Below, piece by piece: positions 5,211 to 21,050 of a stretch of 30,363 bases of DNA. The stretch is from positions 1 to 30,363 of IMG/VR virus record IMGVR_UViG_3300007770_000065; one strand, written 5' to 3'. This stretch comes from a virus. Below the pieces are notes generated by a model that was not told the origin of the DNA, did no database searches, and saw only the letters and a program-made list of their open reading frames with translations. How positions within the stretch are numbered: position 1 is the first letter of the stretch; every line of letters starts with the position of its first letter. The translations under genes were made by a program, and so were the position numbers.

Positions 5211-5675
5211 TTATCCATCCAAGAACTGCGGACCTTCCGCAGTTCCTCCATTAATATCAATCTTTCTCGGCTTCACCTTCTCAGGAATCTCATTGAGAAG
5301 ATTGATCGAAAGAAGACCATTCTCAAATGTTGCGTCAGTAACAACAATCGTGGGGCTCAATGTCCACGTTCGCTTAAAATTACGCTCGGCAATTCCCTGG
5401 TGGATGTGTGTTTCCTTTCCACTATGATCCTTATTAGACTCAACCGTGAGCCTATCGTCCTGCACCGTTACAGAAACCTCATCTTCATTAAACCCAGCAA
5501 TCGCAAGGTCAATCCGAAACTCGTTTTCGGTAACCCTCACAATATTATATGGAGGATAGGTTGCAGCCTGACCCGTTCCAACACTCGTTGAAAGCAGTCG
5601 ATCGAAGATTTGATCAAATCCCACAAGGAAAGGATCGCTCCGAAGCTCATTAAAAATACTCGGTATTCTGGTCAT
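5211..5675 (-). CDS. hsp20: Hsp20 / IbpA-like small heat-shock protein
   Basis: Alpha-crystallin-domain holdase chaperone of 154 residues that would bind unfolding proteins during infection. Class A (IbpA-like) marks are seen: YPPYNI at the domain start, GIAERNFKRTW, the A-x(n)-NGLLSINL strand and IPEKVKPRKIDI near the C-terminus. I chose the ATG at 5675 (MTRIPS), 36 bases inside the longest frame, because AGGAG lies 7-8 bases upstream. The gene has its own strong sigma70-like promoter (5744-5772) and a 5' leader with a long hairpin (5707-5739), and ends at a terminator, so it is an independent unit wedged between regA and gp43. Hsp20 genes are common in T4-like cyanophages. Confidence 0.95.
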   Translation of the reverse strand: MTRIPSIFNELRSDPFLVGFDQIFDRLLSTSVGTGQAATYPPYNIVRVTENEFRIDLAIAGFNEDEVSVTVQDDRLTVESNKDHSGKETHIHQGIAERNFKRTWTLSPTIVVTDATFENGLLSINLLNEIPEKVKPRKIDINGGTAEGPQFLDG

Positions 5676-5706
5676 ATTGTTTCTCCTTATTATAAGCAAG
5701 TTATAT

Positions 5707-5739
5707 TTCAAACAAACCCAAATTTGGCATTTGTTTGAA
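5707..5739 (-). promoter_or_regulatory. Leader hairpin of hsp20 (possible RNA thermometer or operator)
   Basis: A 33-base inverted repeat with arms TTCAAACAAA / TTTGTTTGAA (10 bp, perfect) around a second palindrome CCAAATTTGG. Given the promoter upstream, transcription should start at or just before it, placing the hairpin at the 5' end of the hsp20 mRNA, about 32 bases from the start codon. A/U-rich leader hairpins often control small heat-shock genes thermally, but this one does not clearly cover the Shine-Dalgarno sequence, so it may instead stabilise the mRNA or bind a repressor. Confidence 0.55.
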
Positions 5740-5743
5740 CCTA

Positions 5744-5772
5744 AAGATAAGCAAATAAATCTTATCTGTCAA
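5744..5772 (-). promoter_or_regulatory. Sigma70-like promoter for hsp20
   Basis: On the minus strand a perfect -35 TTGACA (5772-5767) is followed after 17 bases by -10 TATCTT (5749-5744). It lies in the 153-base gap between regA and hsp20, which has no other use. The strength of the -35 suggests expression by unmodified host RNA polymerase, hence early in infection. Confidence 0.75.
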
Positions 5773-5828
5773 CCCTAAACTTCAATTTTTTTTTATCTCT
5801 TTGTGTTTTTTCTCGTAAAGAAACTCTA

Positions 5829-6263
5829 TTACTTCGATTTGTTTCCTATGTTATACTTAGCAACCAAATTCCAATTGACCCTATCTTTATGAGCAATTAT
5901 TTTAATTTGCCCAAGAGGAACTATTGGATCTGAGCTGGCTTTTACGTTAACCAAACTCAATAGACCCCATTCTGCCAACAGGTTCGCAATGGTGTTTCTG
6001 CGAGCAAGATCATTTTCATTAAAATTAGACGCCTTTCCATCCAAAGCAAAAAGCTCTTTAAAATGAACAATGTAATATTTACCGCGCTTGTGTAAGATAT
6101 GGCATGATTGGAATAAAGTCTTATCCTTACGACTGGCAATACCAATACGAGTAAGGGTTTCTCTGATCTTTAAAAAATCTTCATCCTCTGTCAACTCAAC
6201 TTCCACGAGTGAATTTAAATCAACTGGAACTACTCCTGCTTCGTCTTCTTGTTTGCTTTCCAT
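5829..6263 (-). CDS. regA: RegA translational repressor
   Basis: RNA-binding protein that represses translation of early phage mRNAs, including those of replication genes, by covering start sites. Residues ~22-144 match the T4 RegA pattern closely: DFLKIRETLTRIGIA, then LFQSCHILHKRGKYYIVHFKE, LLAEWGLL, and the C-terminal WNLVAKYNIGN. An acidic N-terminal extension of ~20 residues is extra relative to T4 RegA (122 residues). The start ATG at 6263 lies 44 bases inside gp62; no better start is visible. Placement after gp62 is the T4 order. Very likely correct from motif order and synteny. Confidence 0.95.
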   Translation of the reverse strand: MESKQEDEAGVVPVDLNSLVEVELTEDEDFLKIRETLTRIGIASRKDKTLFQSCHILHKRGKYYIVHFKELFALDGKASNFNENDLARRNTIANLLAEWGLLSLVNVKASSDPIVPLGQIKIIAHKDRVNWNLVAKYNIGNKSK

Positions 6264-6645
6264 TTTGAATACCGCCTCTTTTCAATCGTTTATGAATAAG
6301 AGAAAGTTGTTCACCCGTCAGCAATTTAAAAATCTCATAAGCCTTTCTATGACTACAAGAATAATACTCCTTAATTGCGTCAATATCTTCATCCTTCCTG
6401 GGCTTTAACCATCTCGAAAACCGCTTTTTCCTTCTAATACTATTTAGCAAAAAATCATACTGTAAACGGCTATCAAGATGTTCCCGCTGGTTAACTTCAT
6501 TTGCATAAAGCACCGTGTCCTGAAAATAAGACAAGGTACGATTAATTATAAAGGGTCTGTATTCATTTTCGGCAAGAAGATCATCTTCCATCAAATTGTT
6601 TTTACTGAAATTAATTGCCGTCAAGAAATCACCCAAAGTTGCCAT
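6220..6645 (-). CDS. 62: Clamp-loader small subunit gp62
   Basis: Probable non-ATPase subunit of the T4-type clamp loader (one gp62 with four gp44), loading the gp45 ring on DNA. 141 residues; starts MATLGDFLTAINFSK and contains a basic core (SIRRKKRFSRWLKPRK), as I recall for gp62 of T4-like cyanophages. The call rests largely on position between gp44 and regA, since gp62 diverges strongly. The ATG at 6645 has AGGAGG seven bases upstream; a TTG at 6648 is the less likely start. The ATG shares one base with the stop of the upstream 38-residue peptide (TGATG), suggesting coupling. The C-terminal RRRSRSSSS tail is encoded in the overlap with regA. Confidence 0.8.
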   Translation of the reverse strand: MATLGDFLTAINFSKNNLMEDDLLAENEYRPFIINRTLSYFQDTVLYANEVNQREHLDSRLQYDFLLNSIRRKKRFSRWLKPRKDEDIDAIKEYYSCSHRKAYEIFKLLTGEQLSLIHKRLKRGGIQNGKQTRRRSRSSSS

Positions 6646-6761
6646 CAATAATCCTCCTTATAATCCCGACCCTGGCCCACTCTAATAAAATTGCCCACAA
6701 ACCAAGAAACCAAAAACGAGGCAATCAGCCAACCAACAACACAAATCATTACCTTCAACAT
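6645..6761 (-). CDS. 38-residue single-pass membrane peptide
   Basis: Short frame beginning MLKVMICVVGWLIASFLVSW: one hydrophobic helix from about residue 3 to 24, then a polar tail. GGAG lies about 9 bases before the ATG, and the stop overlaps the gp62 start by one base (TGATG), the junction type seen throughout this operon. I do not recognise the family. Such micro-proteins in phage early regions can modify host membrane proteins or sensors, but no function is visible. Confidence 0.6.
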   Translation of the reverse strand: MLKVMICVVGWLIASFLVSWFVGNFIRVGQGRDYKEDY

Positions 6762-6767
6762 TCTCAA

Positions 6768-6854
6768 TTACTCCATAAAAAACAAGCACAAAAATAAATG
6801 GAAAAGCGCACATCCAACAATAACACCCATAAAAAATTGTATCTCTATGACCAC
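6768..6854 (-). CDS. 28-residue hydrophobic peptide, GTG start
   Basis: Frame starting GTG with GGAGG seven bases upstream and ending six bases before the next peptide's ATG. Almost all of it is hydrophobic (FFMGVIVGCALFHLFLCLFF), a single membrane helix. It fills the gap between the deoxyribosyltransferase-like gene and the 38-residue peptide with gene-like spacing. An alternative start is the ATG at 6830 (20 residues). Function unknown. Confidence 0.5.
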   Translation of the reverse strand: MVIEIQFFMGVIVGCALFHLFLCLFFME

Positions 6855-6878
6855 ACTAAAACCTCCCAACCAATAACC

Positions 6879-7253
6879 TCACGGAACCTCATACAAAATG
6901 GGAATATTATTACTCACCGCAAACTCATGTTCAATCTTTGTGCCGTGACCCTTTTCCCAACCCGGAGCAAAGAAAATATAATCACATTTTGCAATCACCG
7001 AAAGATCGGACGCAATCACATCTTCATAATCGATTAGCCCCAATTCATATGCCCACTGATCGTTTTCAATAGGCGAAATGACGGCATAGTCATTCTTCAT
7101 AAAGATCAAACTATAGTATCGTAGAATATTGCGATTGTTATCTTGATCCTCTTTGGATAGAGTGTCTCCATTGCTAAAGACCCCAGCAACATACACAACG
7201 GGTTTCCTGGGATTTAAAGCACGACTTTGCTGTGCCAAACGCTTACTACTCAT
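6879..7253 (-). CDS. Nucleoside 2-deoxyribosyltransferase-like / DUF4406-like protein
   Basis: 124 residues. The first strand VVYVAGVFS, the later D-x-S-V-I-A-K-C-D motif and PGWEKGHGTKIEHEFA, followed by a final hydrophobic strand, match nucleoside deoxyribosyltransferase-like proteins of the DUF4406 type, in which the Glu of the EHEFA-like segment is the expected nucleophile. The family transfers deoxyribose between bases or hydrolyses (deoxy)nucleosides; a role in nucleotide pools is inferred. I place the start at ATG 7253 with AAGGGA upstream, overlapping the preceding stop, not at the in-frame start at 7292. Confidence 0.72.
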   Translation of the reverse strand: MSSKRLAQQSRALNPRKPVVYVAGVFSNGDTLSKEDQDNNRNILRYYSLIFMKNDYAVISPIENDQWAYELGLIDYEDVIASDLSVIAKCDYIFFAPGWEKGHGTKIEHEFAVSNNIPILYEVP

Positions 7254-7650
7254 TAAACCATCCCTTATCGCCAGGGTGACGGGCAGCGCCACCCGACGCA
7301 GTATTATTCTTCATATGGTGATCATACACATCACCATTCTGCTCACACTTCTTATCCTCATACGGAGCAACCTGCCTCCGATAGAGTTCTTGCTTGACAC
7401 ACTCAAGCACACCAATCACGGAATTATACCTTTCGTAATTGGCTTCACCCGAATTATCCCTGCACCAAAAATCACACAAACGAGTGATGATATAGTTCAG
7501 TGTTCCTGGGTGATACCCAACACTTTGTGGACCAGGGAAGTGACTACGAAGTCGTTCCATCTTCTCAATAAACTTAGCCAACCCATACACACCAGTAAAC
7601 TCAGAACTATACTCAATTGTATTGCGATCATTTTCACTAATATACGGCAT
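7246..7650 (-). CDS. Conserved phage protein, DUF6899-like
   Basis: 134 residues starting MPYISENDRNTIE. The pattern of a histidine/glycine segment before LNYIITRLCDFW, then YNSVIGVLECVKQELYRRQ and VAPYEDKKCEQNGDVYD, is one I recognise from conserved proteins of T4-like cyanophages and other phages (DUF6899-like). Function unknown. The start overlaps the upstream stop by one base (TAATG) and the end overlaps the next start, so it belongs to the gp44-gp62 operon. The C-terminal ~25 residues are polar and probably disordered. Confidence 0.75.
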   Translation of the reverse strand: MPYISENDRNTIEYSSEFTGVYGLAKFIEKMERLRSHFPGPQSVGYHPGTLNYIITRLCDFWCRDNSGEANYERYNSVIGVLECVKQELYRRQVAPYEDKKCEQNGDVYDHHMKNNTASGGAARHPGDKGWFNE

Positions 7651-8969: not shown

Positions 8970-10184
8970 TTATATGTTAAACGCAGTAGCGGTTCCCGTA
9001 GAACCGTTGTATGCAGAACATCCATGTTCCACAAGGTCAAGCCCAATCTCTTCTTCAACTTCTTCTACACGAATACCAATCGTACTCTTTAGTATATAGA
9101 ATAAACCATAAGAAATCAAGCCAGAAAATACCAGATATAAAGATGTTCCCAATAGCTGAATAAAGAACGAATGTTCAGCAGAGAATAATCCGACTGCCAA
9201 TGTTCCCCATACACCACAGGTGAGATGAACAGAAACAGCGCCAACCGGATCGTCAATCTTCAATACCTGATCCAATAACATAATTGACACTACAACAAGA
9301 GATCCTCCAAGCATTCCAATTATAATAGAATCTAACACTCCAACAACATCTGCACCAGCAGTGATACTGACCAAGCCAGCAAGTATTCCATTTAATGCCA
9401 TACTCAAATCAGCTTTATTCGTAATGAACAAGGACGTTACAATACTCGCAAGGCTTCCTGCCGCAGCAGCCAGACACGTTGTAACTAGAACATAAGAAGT
9501 TAGCGCAGGGTCAGCGGAAAGAACAGAACCGCCATTAAACCCAAACCAACCCAACCAAAGCAAAAACGTACCTACTGTTGCCATCGGCAGATTACTCGCA
9601 AAGATTCCTCTCTCTTTTCCGATGCGGCTACCTAGAAGGTATGCGCCAACCAACGCTGCCATGCCACCGAACGCATGAACAATTGTAGAACCGGCAAAAT
9701 CATAGAAACCAAGAGTATCTAAGAATCCACCGCCCCACTTCCAGCTACCCGCAATTGGATAGGCAAAAGCAACGAAGGGTATACAAAATAGTATAAATGA
9801 CTTTAGTTTAATTCTCTCTGCAACGGCACCGGACACGATAGTCAAACACGTTGCCGCAAACAATGCCTGAAATAAAAAGTCTGTCCAATAAGTATATGAA
9901 CCATCGGCATACGAAATCTCAGAACCACTAGGACCGGGATTTAAACCGAAGCCAGCAAATCCCATAATTCCATTAAAATCGCCAGGATACATTAGCGAGA
10001 ATCCACAAGCCGCATAGGTAAGTATACCTGCACAGATAATGAATACATTTTTGAATAGAATGTTTACCGTATTCTTACTCTGAGTCATACCAGACTCAAG
10101 GGCAGCAAAGCCCAAATGCATTACAAATACTAATGCTGCTGCGAGCATCATCCACACGTTATTGACTGCAAATAATTCTTCCAT
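8970..10184 (-). CDS. amt: Ammonium transporter Amt (phage-borne)
   Basis: Inner-membrane Amt/MEP/Rh-family channel for ammonium uptake, 404 residues with about eleven hydrophobic helices. Functional residues of E. coli AmtB are kept: the pore gate around Phe109 and the WFGFN motif (213-217), Asp162 in DFAGSTIVH, and the twin histidines His170 and His320. It is full length, so probably active. The ATG at 10184 has a strong GGAGG seven bases upstream; an in-frame start at 10226 is less likely. No GlnK/P-II regulator gene is beside it, so the phage copy may escape or borrow host control. A TATAAATA late promoter and a large hairpin precede it. A host-derived auxiliary metabolic gene is the natural reading; the transport role is inferred from family. 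Confidence 0.95.
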   Translation of the reverse strand: MEELFAVNNVWMMLAAALVFVMHLGFAALESGMTQSKNTVNILFKNVFIICAGILTYAACGFSLMYPGDFNGIMGFAGFGLNPGPSGSEISYADGSYTYWTDFLFQALFAATCLTIVSGAVAERIKLKSFILFCIPFVAFAYPIAGSWKWGGGFLDTLGFYDFAGSTIVHAFGGMAALVGAYLLGSRIGKERGIFASNLPMATVGTFLLWLGWFGFNGGSVLSADPALTSYVLVTTCLAAAAGSLASIVTSLFITNKADLSMALNGILAGLVSITAGADVVGVLDSIIIGMLGGSLVVVSIMLLDQVLKIDDPVGAVSVHLTCGVWGTLAVGLFSAEHSFFIQLLGTSLYLVFSGLISYGLFYILKSTIGIRVEEVEEEIGLDLVEHGCSAYNGSTGTATAFNI

Positions 10185-10288
10185 TTTAAGCACCTCCTGC
10201 TTATTCTTTGTACATACGACACGCAATTACGCCGTATAGCTACGTTTAAATTAACAGGATAATGTATAAGCAAGTCGTATGCCAACCT

Positions 10289-10783: not shown

Positions 10784-11800
10784 TTAAAAAGCGAACTGGA
10801 ATCCAATAAATCCACCATCGACATCTCCACCTGTAACTGACTTAGTGTGAAAATAATTAGCCGACAGCTTTGTCTGAGCAAGATCCGACACTACAATATT
10901 TGCTCCAGCGTCAAACCGCTCTTCTGTTCCTGTTACCCCACCATCATATTCAAACCTCTGATACCGAAAAAACGGCTGGGGCTGAAGTGCAAAGGGAACC
11001 GCGGGAATCGTTCCGTCAAGAAGATATGACGCTCCAGCAGTAAAACCGTTGCCTGCGTTCAGACCAACACCAGGGATATAAACCCGATTATCCAGATCAT
11101 AATGATTAAATACAGCATCTACATCAAGTAGACCATAGGGAATCGCGCGGCTATATGTCGTATCAACACTCACCCCAAGGTAACCATCCTGAGCCTGAAC
11201 GGCACTACCAATAGATAGACCCTTGACGGCAGCAATTCCGAAATCAACACGACCGGCAAATAGAACCTCATCATCGTTTCCGTTGAATAGACCAAGGTTA
11301 TAATCAACAGAAACCAGACCCGCTACATCAACATCACCAGAAACAGATGCTCCATCACGACGGCCATATCCATCAAGGGAAGACCACTTGGCAACAAGAC
11401 TGGCACCTTGCCACTCTGTCCATCCATAAGTGTCCAGCATCGCGTTTCGCCCGGCAGGGATCAAGAGCCGACCCACCCTGAAGTTCGCATAATCCTTGTG
11501 TAAAGGCGCATCAAAATACGCATCTAAAATATCCAGACTATTGCCATCTGTCTGAACAGAAACGCGCGCATCAAAAACCGACTTACTAAAGGTTGCTCCA
11601 AGGCGAGCATTATCTAAATTAAACTCACTCACGTCACCAGTCGCGAAGAGTGCTGCCGCTCGTGCCTTTGCGTCAAATTCCACGCCAACCCCATTGTCAG
11701 TAGTAGTGCCTTCTTCATGACCGTCTGCGAAAGAAGGATTCACGCCGATGAACATAAAACAAACAAGTGCCAAAACAAAAAACCTAATAAATCCATTCAT
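10784..11800 (-). CDS. Outer-membrane porin (porin O/P-like beta-barrel)
   Basis: 338 residues. A signal peptide (about residues 1-25, ending NPSFA before DGHEEG) is followed by alternating amphipathic strands and a C-terminal strand ending FIGFQFAF, the terminal phenylalanine used by BamA for barrel insertion. GRLLIPAGR and NLGLFNGN resemble segments of phosphate-selective porins (porin O/P family), but selectivity cannot be judged by eye. The start at ATG 11800 has AAGGAG eight bases upstream. A TATAAATA late promoter one base after the gp45 stop drives it. A phage gene for an outer-membrane channel is unusual; uptake of nutrients, altered phage adsorption or superinfection exclusion are all possible. 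Confidence 0.88.
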   Translation of the reverse strand: MNGFIRFFVLALVCFMFIGVNPSFADGHEEGTTTDNGVGVEFDAKARAAALFATGDVSEFNLDNARLGATFSKSVFDARVSVQTDGNSLDILDAYFDAPLHKDYANFRVGRLLIPAGRNAMLDTYGWTEWQGASLVAKWSSLDGYGRRDGASVSGDVDVAGLVSVDYNLGLFNGNDDEVLFAGRVDFGIAAVKGLSIGSAVQAQDGYLGVSVDTTYSRAIPYGLLDVDAVFNHYDLDNRVYIPGVGLNAGNGFTAGASYLLDGTIPAVPFALQPQPFFRYQRFEYDGGVTGTEERFDAGANIVVSDLAQTKLSANYFHTKSVTGGDVDGGFIGFQFAF

Positions 11801-11817
11801 AATTATTCTCCTTATAT

Positions 11818-11846
11818 CCAAAAACAAACTCCAGAACATCTGGAGT
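11818..11846 (-). terminator. Terminator-like hairpin in the porin leader
   Basis: Perfect 9-bp stem AACTCCAGA/TCTGGAGTT with a three-base loop, then TTGTTTTTGG on the minus strand. This would end transcripts coming from gp45. Yet it lies downstream of the late promoter at 11872-11879, so late transcripts must cross it, or it acts as a 5' leader hairpin. Confidence 0.7.
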
Positions 11847-18267: not shown

Positions 18268-18344
18268 TGGTCTGCCCGGCAGGAGTTAAACCTGCGACCC
18301 TCCGCTCCCAAAGCGGACGCTCTATCAGACTGAGCTACGGGCAG
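18268..18344 (-). tRNA. tRNA-Pro (UGG), CCA encoded
   Basis: Full cloverleaf of 77 bases: acceptor CTGCCCG/CGGGCAG, D-stem GCTC/GAGC, anticodon stem TCCGC/GCGGA with loop TTTGGGA (anticodon UGG), T-stem GCAGG/CCTGC, discriminator A and encoded CCA. Odd points: the T-loop is TTTAACT, not TTCRANN, and the D-loop lacks the usual GG pair, so both partners of the elbow contact are changed. Reads CCA-type proline codons. Confidence 0.95.
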
Positions 18345-18628: not shown

Positions 18629-18969
18629 TGGTGCCGGGTGCGGGGCTCGAACCCGCATGACCTTTCGGTCGGGAGATTTTCTTACCAACTACAACTTTCG
18701 TTGCTGAAAATATCACATCTTATATACGATATAATCATTTGTGGTCTGGACTTTCTCTTTCCCATATGTCGAGAACACTTAGGGACTGGCTGTCAAGTCT
18801 CTACACTTTTTAGTATGAGTCATAAAGGCTCCTACTAACTTAGCTCGGGATTGCCATCAGCATTACCTGTTAAGGTTTCCCCGAATTTAACCAGATTCAT
18901 TTAGAAGTTTCCTGTCTAAATGCTCAAATAATATAAGTCTCCTGCGTATACCAATTCCGCCAACCCGGC
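18629..18969 (-). tRNA. tRNA-Leu (UAA) split by a group I intron
   Basis: Exon 1 (18969-18935) holds the acceptor GCCGGGT, the D-arm and the anticodon stem GGAGA with C-U-U. Exon 2 (18680-18629) continues A-A-A-A, stem TCTCC, the long variable arm (CGACC-GAAA-GGTC), T-arm GCGGG/CCCGC, the acceptor complement and encoded CCA. Spliced, the loop is CTTAAAA with anticodon UAA. The exons join exactly between U34 and A35. Function depends on intron removal. Family-typical leucine features (long variable arm, discriminator A) are present. Very likely correct. Confidence 0.95.
18681..18934 (-). other. Group I intron (254 nt) in tRNA-Leu(UAA)
   Basis: Lies between U34 and A35, the insertion site of the cyanobacterial/plastid tRNA-Leu(UAA) intron. 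The last exon base is U and the last intron base is G, as self-splicing requires. The internal guide GAG (after ATATTATTT) can pair with the exon C-U-U, giving the U-G wobble of P1. P2 is CATTTAGA/TCTAAATG. Core motifs are present: AATTCGGGGAAACC (18874-18888), GGCAATCCCGAGCTAA (near 18839-18855) and GTGTAGAGACTTGACAG (18790-18806). There is no endonuclease gene inside. Confidence 0.93.
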
Positions 18970-19288: not shown

Positions 19289-19365
19289 TGGCGGGACGGG
19301 TGGGGATCGAACCCGCAACCTCTGGCGTGACAAGCCAGCGTTCTAACCAATTGAACTACCGCCCC
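19289..19365 (-). tRNA. tRNA-Asp (GUC), CCA encoded
   Basis: 77 bases, canonical: acceptor GGGGCGG/CCGTCCC (one G-U), D-arm with GG, anticodon stem CTGGC/GCCAG with loop TTGTCAC (anticodon GUC), T-arm GCGGG-TTCGATC-CCCAC region, discriminator G and CCA. It is the only tRNA here whose anticodon does not favour A-ending codons. Confidence 0.96.
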
Positions 19366-19372
19366 TAAAAAA

Positions 19373-19448
19373 TGGAGAGCAGACCGGGACTCGAACCCGG
19401 AACTTTGTGGTTAAAAGCCACACGTTCTGCCAATTGAACTATCTGCCC
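19373..19448 (-). tRNA. tRNA-Lys (UUU), CCA encoded
   Basis: 76 bases: acceptor GGGCAGA/TCTGCTC, anticodon stem TGTGG/CCACA with loop CTTTTAA (anticodon UUU), T-arm CCGGG/CCCGG with TTCGAGT, encoded CCA. Seven bases from tRNA-Asp, so the two are probably cotranscribed and processed together. Confidence 0.96.
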
Positions 19449-20477: not shown

Positions 20478-21050
20478 TTAATATTCACTCCCGAGATTTG
20501 CGTTGCGCAAATCCGCGCCGCTCAGGTTCGCGAAGTCCAGGTTCGCGTTGGACAGATCCGCGTTGCTCAGGTTCGCGTTGGTCAGGTCCGCGCCGCTCAG
20601 GTCCGCGTCGGACAGGTCCGCGTTGGTCAGGTTTGCGTTGATCAGCCCCGCGTTGGACAGGTTCGCTCTATACAACACCACGTTGACCAGCCCCGCGCTT
20701 AACAGGAATACGTTGGACAGGTTCGCTTGGTGCATGTGTGCCCAGGTCAGGTCCGCGGCGATCATGTACGCGTTGGTCAGATCCGCGTTGCTCAGGTTCG
20801 CGTAGGTCAGGTCCGCGTAGGACAGGTCCGCGATGTGCAGCCACGCGCCGCTCAGGTCCGCGTTGGTCAGGTTCGCGTTGGTCAGGTTCGCGTTGGATAG
20901 GTCCGCGTCGGACAGGTCCGCGTCAGTCAGGTCTGATCCACTCAGGTAGGCTCCTCTAAGATTCGCTTGCACTCCGCCCCCTTCGCCGCGCAGCCACTTC
21001 TGGTGAGGCTCGTACCAATCATATGTCTTACACAGTTCTTTCTCAGTCAT
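20478..21050 (-). CDS. Pentapeptide-repeat protein
   Basis: 190 residues. After a 30-residue head (MTEKELCKTYDWYEPHQKWL) come about 30 tandem A(D/N)LxN-type pentapeptides, predicting a right-handed beta-helix. Some members mimic DNA and protect gyrase; others have no known role. The repeats are nearly identical at DNA level (units like GCGGACCTG) and much richer in G+C than the AT-rich flanks, suggesting recent expansion or transfer. AGGAG lies upstream of the ATG, although spaced about 11 bases. A phage role in modulating host topoisomerase is speculation. Confidence 0.93.
   Translation of the reverse strand: MTEKELCKTYDWYEPHQKWLRGEGGGVQANLRGAYLSGSDLTDADLSDADLSNANLTNANLTNADLSGAWLHIADLSYADLTYANLSNADLTNAYMIAADLTWAHMHQANLSNVFLLSAGLVNVVLYRANLSNAGLINANLTNADLSDADLSGADLTNANLSNADLSNANLDFANLSGADLRNANLGSEY

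Follow-up and report, generated by a model that had tools for sequence, protein, structure and literature searches.

The window analysed here, a virus contig of 30,363 nucleotides, encodes a tRNA-Leu(UAA) whose anticodon is interrupted by a group I intron. We consider it probable, at roughly 80%, that a mobile group I intron of the type inserted in bacterial tRNA anticodons, drawn from a pool found in phages and gammaproteobacteria, invaded a tRNA-Leu(UAA) gene already resident in the phage. The closest relatives of the intron occur in both of these groups and sister phages carry the tRNA gene without it; the intron therefore resembles a mobile element moving between the tRNA genes of phages and bacteria.

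The split tRNA gene and the fold of its intron

A standard ARAGORN scan without introns reports four tRNAs in the 30,363-base contig and misses the split gene, and tRNA scans lacking an intron option will overlook phage tRNAs of this kind. With introns allowed, ARAGORN predicts a tRNA-Leu(taa) at complement 18629-18969 whose anticodon is split between bases 34 and 35 by an intron of 254 nt. The 5' exon (35 nt; 18935-18969) ends in GACUU, whose last two bases are U33 and U34, the intron occupies 18681-18934, and the 3' exon (52 nt; 18629-18680) runs from A35 through an encoded CCA. The remainder of the tRNA is complete: joined, the exons give an 87-nt tRNA-Leu that folds in full, with a 7-bp acceptor and a long variable arm. 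Both ARAGORN and the group I model thus agree with the original prediction of a phage tRNA-Leu(UAA) containing a group I intron, and its placement exactly between U34 and A35 is confirmed by ARAGORN and by alignment to intronless relatives; the predicted interval of 18629-18969 holds for the whole tRNA gene, on the minus strand, but the intron alone spans 18681-18934. The neighboring tRNA-Pro(UGG) (18268-18344, minus strand) also follows the intronless tRNA-Leu of related phages, and tRNA-Asp(GUC) and tRNA-Lys(UUU) (19289-19448, minus strand) belong to the same tRNA array and have no intron.

The group I intron model RF00028 matches 18725-18944 on the minus strand over its full length, with 49.6 bits, just below the curated gathering cut-off of 50, and E-values of 1.5e-13 (searched for this record) and 1.2e-11 (against all families). 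Other members of this intron group obtain similar scores. A match to rydB (18.9 bits; gathering cut-off, 50) was set aside as chance. To describe the fold, a 31-pair model of P3, P4, P5, P6a, P7, P8, and P9 was drawn from the window sequence and applied to an alignment of 42 same-site introns, comprising the window and 41 others from phages, gamma- and alphaproteobacteria, and cyanobacteria. Across these introns, 97.3% of the 1,296 cells pair, compared to 27 to 45% in slid controls. Two-sided changes are observed at 22 of the 31 pairs, and 254 cells are changed on both sides, compared to a shuffled mean of 77, with none of 500 shuffles reaching as high a count. Chance is thereby excluded as the source of the structural signal. 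P3 and P7 form the pseudoknot required of a group I core.

All elements lie on the minus strand. The internal guide G10-A11-G12 (18923-18925) pairs with exon bases C32-U33-U34 to form P1, with a U34-G10 wobble at the splice site, and intron columns T9, G10, A11, and G12 show no variation across the 42 introns; the last base of the intron is G254. The guide is followed by a P2 hairpin (CAUUUAGA/UCUAAAUG; 18898-18922). The P3 strands are found at 18889-18894 and 18786-18794 and covary at 4 of 4 main pairs, P4 (UCGGG/CCCGA), J4/5 (GAAA), and the P5 domain cover 18845-18884 and are paired in 100% of cells, and the P6a stem covers 18810-18838. In P7, the guanosine-binding helix, GACUU (18795-18799) pairs with AAGUC (18749-18753) in 100% of cells, and its fifth pair covaries as U-A, A-U, or C-G. 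The P8 hairpin (18760-18785) is paired in 97.6% of cells, and the P9 hairpin GCAAC-GAAA-GUUGU (18691-18704), with a GNRA-type loop, in 100%, with 4 of 5 pairs covarying. The P1 U-G splice pair, terminal G, P2 hairpin, and core motifs that had been read from the sequence are thus all present.

Because pairing from P3 to P9, including the pseudoknot, holds in 97% of cells and is accompanied by extensive covariation, the intron is likely an active ribozyme. Together with the guide and the terminal G, these covarying helices point to a fold that selection maintains across the family and that the window copy has kept whole. A putative assignment to subgroup IC3 would agree with its homology to tRNA introns of proteobacteria and cyanobacteria. 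Once a mobile intron had entered the resident tRNA-Leu(UAA) gene, it would adopt the P1-P9 ribozyme fold in the transcript, where an external guanosine held in P7 would cut after U34 and the freed exon end would then attack after G254. Splicing of this kind would ligate the exons into a normal tRNA-Leu(UAA) with its encoded CCA.

Intronless sister phages and the kinship of the intron

Relatives of the phage were gathered via PhoH (81% protein identity) and CobS (77 to 79%). Five of them (L274, L285, L286, L287, and L319) carry tRNA-Leu(UAA) beside tRNA-Pro(UGG) without an intron, and their exons join precisely at the insertion site of the window. At least 40 nt around this site are identical between the window exons and the five intronless relatives, and L286 is identical to the entire 5' exon (35/35). 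Given identical sequence around the site in a syntenic intronless tRNA-Leu, the intron must have entered, or left, a resident phage tRNA. Of the two, gain would be the simpler reading in view of the kinship of the intron.

Counting shared columns, the window intron reaches 78% identity with the viral intron L393, and at most 72% with gammaproteobacterial, 67% with alphaproteobacterial, and 62% with cyanobacterial introns. L393 is its sister in the tree (100/99 support), within a mixed gammaproteobacterial and phage region, while 17 cyanobacterial introns group apart in a clade with 100/100 support and a long stem, with the window intron outside. The deep branches of this tree are poorly supported, and in an AU test over 208 columns, holding the window together with cyanobacterial introns is not rejected (p 0.37 and 0.31). 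BLAST searches with the intron yield matches in 41 of 369 evenly drawn gammaproteobacterial genomes (best E 3.5e-20), 12 of 385 alphaproteobacterial genomes (best E 1.4e-13), and 8 of 386 cyanobacterial genomes (best E 5.6e-5, over short stretches of 22 to 39 nt). At 13 positions diagnostic of cyanobacterial versus phage/gammaproteobacterial introns, the window shows the phage/proteobacterial state at 12, sharing only one base with the cyanobacterial tRNA-Leu introns. One scan of bacterial genomes recovered approximately 100 introns at this site; apart from cyanobacteria, most came from alpha- and gammaproteobacteria. Interrupted tRNA-Leu-TAA and tRNA-Arg-TCT genes have been reported from Thiomargarita and Beggiatoa (PMC4853749).

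The original prediction had described a cyanobacterial-type intron, acquired from a cyanobacterium and indicating a link to such a host. The shared site and the general group I type stand, but the cyanobacterial label is not supported, and acquisition from a cyanobacterium is disfavored both by the closest relatives of the intron and by the sister phages that hold the tRNA gene without it. Identity, genome-wide BLAST, diagnostic bases, and the tree, proposed as a check, all disfavor a cyanobacterial origin, with the AU test alone not rejecting a sister placement. Being closest to phage and gammaproteobacterial introns, the intron also gives no evidence for a cyanobacterial host. In a broad sense, the window and cyanobacterial introns likely share a common ancestor.

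The phage itself encodes T4-type replication genes (gp43, gp44, gp45, and gp62) and RegA, as well as PhoH, CobS, a dUTPase, and an amidase. Its PolB is 49% identical to that of Synechococcus phage S-RIM4, and for CobS the best alignment over its length is to Pelagibacter phage HTVC008M; as a basis for host prediction, the phage proteins offer only distant T4-like relatives. A complete ammonium transporter gene (PF00909, 354 bits) lies beside a porin-like ORF with an apparent signal peptide (8970-10226 and 10784-11839, both on the minus strand), and the two are possible auxiliary genes for nutrient uptake. The best matches to this region in the phage collection are just 42% identical, and comparison of the transporter gave no host indication. 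A ROSE-type RNA thermometer (RF02523, 47.3 bits, above gathering; 5670-5736, minus strand) overlaps the start of a phage Hsp20 gene (5211-5711), and this predicted Hsp20 is likely a heat-controlled phage chaperone. We also observe a frame of pentapeptide-like repeats (A[DN]LS/T) at 20478-21050 on the minus strand.

It is very improbable that the phage acquired its tRNA-Leu gene, intron included, from a cyanobacterial host. Gene and site are those of the classic cyanobacterial intron, the nearest PolB and CobS sequences among isolates are those of cyanophages and Pelagibacter phage HTVC008M, and the AU test (p 0.31 to 0.37) leaves a sister relation standing. However, the exons are near-identical to the intronless tRNA-Leu of the sister phages, and the tRNA gene itself was therefore not imported with the intron; moreover, of the three main cellular groups, the cyanobacterial introns resemble the window intron least, keep to their own fully supported clade, and differ at 12 of 13 diagnostic positions, which include the P9.0 strand (AUUCUC versus ACCAC). 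That an old phage intron was instead passed down vertically within this phage group, with precise loss in the relatives that lack it, is unlikely: all five relatives found with a tRNA-Leu are intronless, and the sister intron L393 is located in a tRNA-Leu with quite different exons, even though this closest intron comes from another phage contig and precise loss of group I introns, via a spliced-RNA or recombination intermediate, is a known process.

The Rfam score slightly below the curated cut-off could also reflect a decayed, non-splicing remnant in a dead tRNA gene. We regard this as quite improbable, as family members score similarly, the core pairs tested in the window (including P3, P4, P7, P8, and P9) are all standard, and the gene retains the full tRNA fold of its exons along with the terminal G and the U-G pair at the splice site. 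An assembly chimera or cellular contamination is conceivable in a record that is a metagenomic virus fragment, but is extremely improbable here, given phage-like exons, T4-type gp43, gp44, gp45, gp62, and RegA within the window, and a tRNA-Leu/tRNA-Pro order as found in relatives from other samples.

Same-site introns and endonuclease genes in other phages

Searches of IMG/VR with an interrupted tRNA-Leu(UAA) pattern and with a core pattern returned 46 and 41 stretches, respectively, and viral contigs were then filtered on exons and ARAGORN results. This leaves at least 42 viral contigs, not counting the window, with an intron at U34|A35 (28 plus 14, with a few near-copies). RF00028 is matched at E <= 0.001 in 33 of 41 scanned viral same-site records, and most of the non-matching ones hold an insert. 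In phages, introns of this kind interrupt tRNA-Leu, Arg(UCU), Met(CAU), Thr(UGU), Ala(UGC), and Lys(UUU), inserted after U34 or U36 as read from the anticodon loop. One phage (L150) contains three intron-split tRNAs (Leu, Met, and Arg) in an array at 5401-7261 and another (L143) contains two, while the group of L390, L400, and L404 shows three RF00028 matches within approximately 1.5 kb (L390, 3526-5058). Such three-intron arrays (L150 and L390), involving different tRNA genes, suggest spread between the tRNAs of one genome.

That intron-split tRNAs are rare in phages, as had been stated for this locus, accords with the literature but not with the same-site introns counted here. According to Hausner et al. 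2014 (PMC3984707), the phage introns known by then were all in protein-coding genes, despite the many phage tRNA genes, and a search of later open-access papers (PMC11878797, PMC6409571, PMC13015707, PMC10264068, and PMC11555353) met no report of phage tRNA introns. The core matches examined in isolated phages lie in or beside genes for ribonucleotide reductase (RNR), RNA polymerase, terminase, and DNA polymerase, with one lacking an assigned gene. The exception is a group of Klebsiella jumbo phages, in which a tRNA with anticodon CAU is involved. In Klebsiella phage Muenster (L002, MT708547.1), an unannotated CAU tRNA at approximately 1425-1733 contains a group I intron after U36 (RF00028, 104 bits), with an HNH gene slightly downstream, and similar cores are present in four more Klebsiella phage records. 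Roseobacter phage CRP-7 (L003) has a group I intron (79 bits) at approximately 1471-1681, which adjoins a ribonucleotide reductase gene annotated as two CDS.

Several introns of this family carry genes of their own. In L393 and roughly nine further introns, which come from phages, gammaproteobacteria, and Acidobacteriota, a frame of approximately 150 residues runs antisense to the tRNA; in L393 it is located in the P6 loop, at the position equivalent to the loop of the window's P6a stem. The proteins encoded in L393 and L165 share 59% identity and match HNH families at E values of about 1e-4 to 1e-3, slightly below Pfam cut-offs. Further phage introns contain sense-strand frames resembling HNH proteins, and a viral tRNA-Leu intron (L129, 2788-3733) encodes a LAGLIDADG endonuclease (PF03161, E 2e-26) in place of HNH. 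Six-frame translation of the 254-nt window intron reveals no endonuclease gene and no noteworthy open reading frame. This set is consistent with introns that cycle between endonuclease-driven homing and loss within a pool common to phages and bacteria. A mobile intron invading the resident phage gene would stem from such a pool, where part of the copies have a gene for an HNH homing endonuclease in their P6 loop. Because the window copy lacks an endonuclease, it most likely arrived by homing or recombination and then lost the gene, or came as a gene-less passenger.

The tRNA-Leu(UAA) intron is a textbook example of an ancient intron whose inheritance is mostly vertical. Here, the same-site intron is found in dozens of phage contigs, and a pair with and without the intron exists inside one phage group. 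This pair and the endonuclease genes common with gammaproteobacteria make horizontal spread of tRNA introns directly testable, and the broader interest lies in tRNA introns as mobile elements of phages. A more speculative idea, to which we assign a small but appreciable chance, is that phages serve as a main reservoir and vehicle for the group I introns of tRNA anticodons, carrying them from one tRNA gene to another and between phages and proteobacteria, and that an anticodon-loop intron benefits the phage. If true, the phage might, for example, be protected from homing endonucleases that cleave intronless sites, or its tRNAs might be exposed later to host anticodon nucleases.

Comparison with known group I introns

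The classical phage group I introns, located in RNR, DNA polymerase, terminase, and RNA polymerase genes, are also ribozymes, some with HNH genes, but they differ in their protein-coding hosts and in a core that is at most 54% identical in the few compared. The cyanobacterial/plastid tRNA-Leu(UAA) intron (IC3 type) resembles the window intron in gene, site (U34|A35), core fold, and P9 hairpin, and is similar in length; it differs in overall sequence (at most 62% identity), at 12 of 13 diagnostic sites, and in having a P9.0 and a fifth P7 pair of another type. An intron on a Tritonibacter mobilis plasmid (L126) is 71% identical over 154 nt and is likewise inserted in an anticodon loop, yet after U36 rather than U34; its split tRNA (2398-2725 of NZ_CP015231.1) reads Thr(UGU), under the ARAGORN label Ile(tat).

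Gammaproteobacterial tRNA-Leu(UAA) introns share the insertion site, up to 72% identity, the U-A fifth pair of P7, and the P9.0 strand with the window intron, and the two tRNAs interrupted in Thiomargarita and Beggiatoa, tRNA-Leu-TAA and tRNA-Arg-TCT, are both also interrupted in phages. The gammaproteobacterial introns differ in being cellular and in that several contain an antisense HNH gene in P6, which the window copy does not. The tRNA-Leu(UAA) introns of uncultivated viral contigs such as L393, L406, and L150 have the same tRNA, site, and core as the window, with L393 reaching 78% identity; they are set apart by exons unrelated in detail, by the HNH gene of L393, and by the three intron-split tRNAs of L150.
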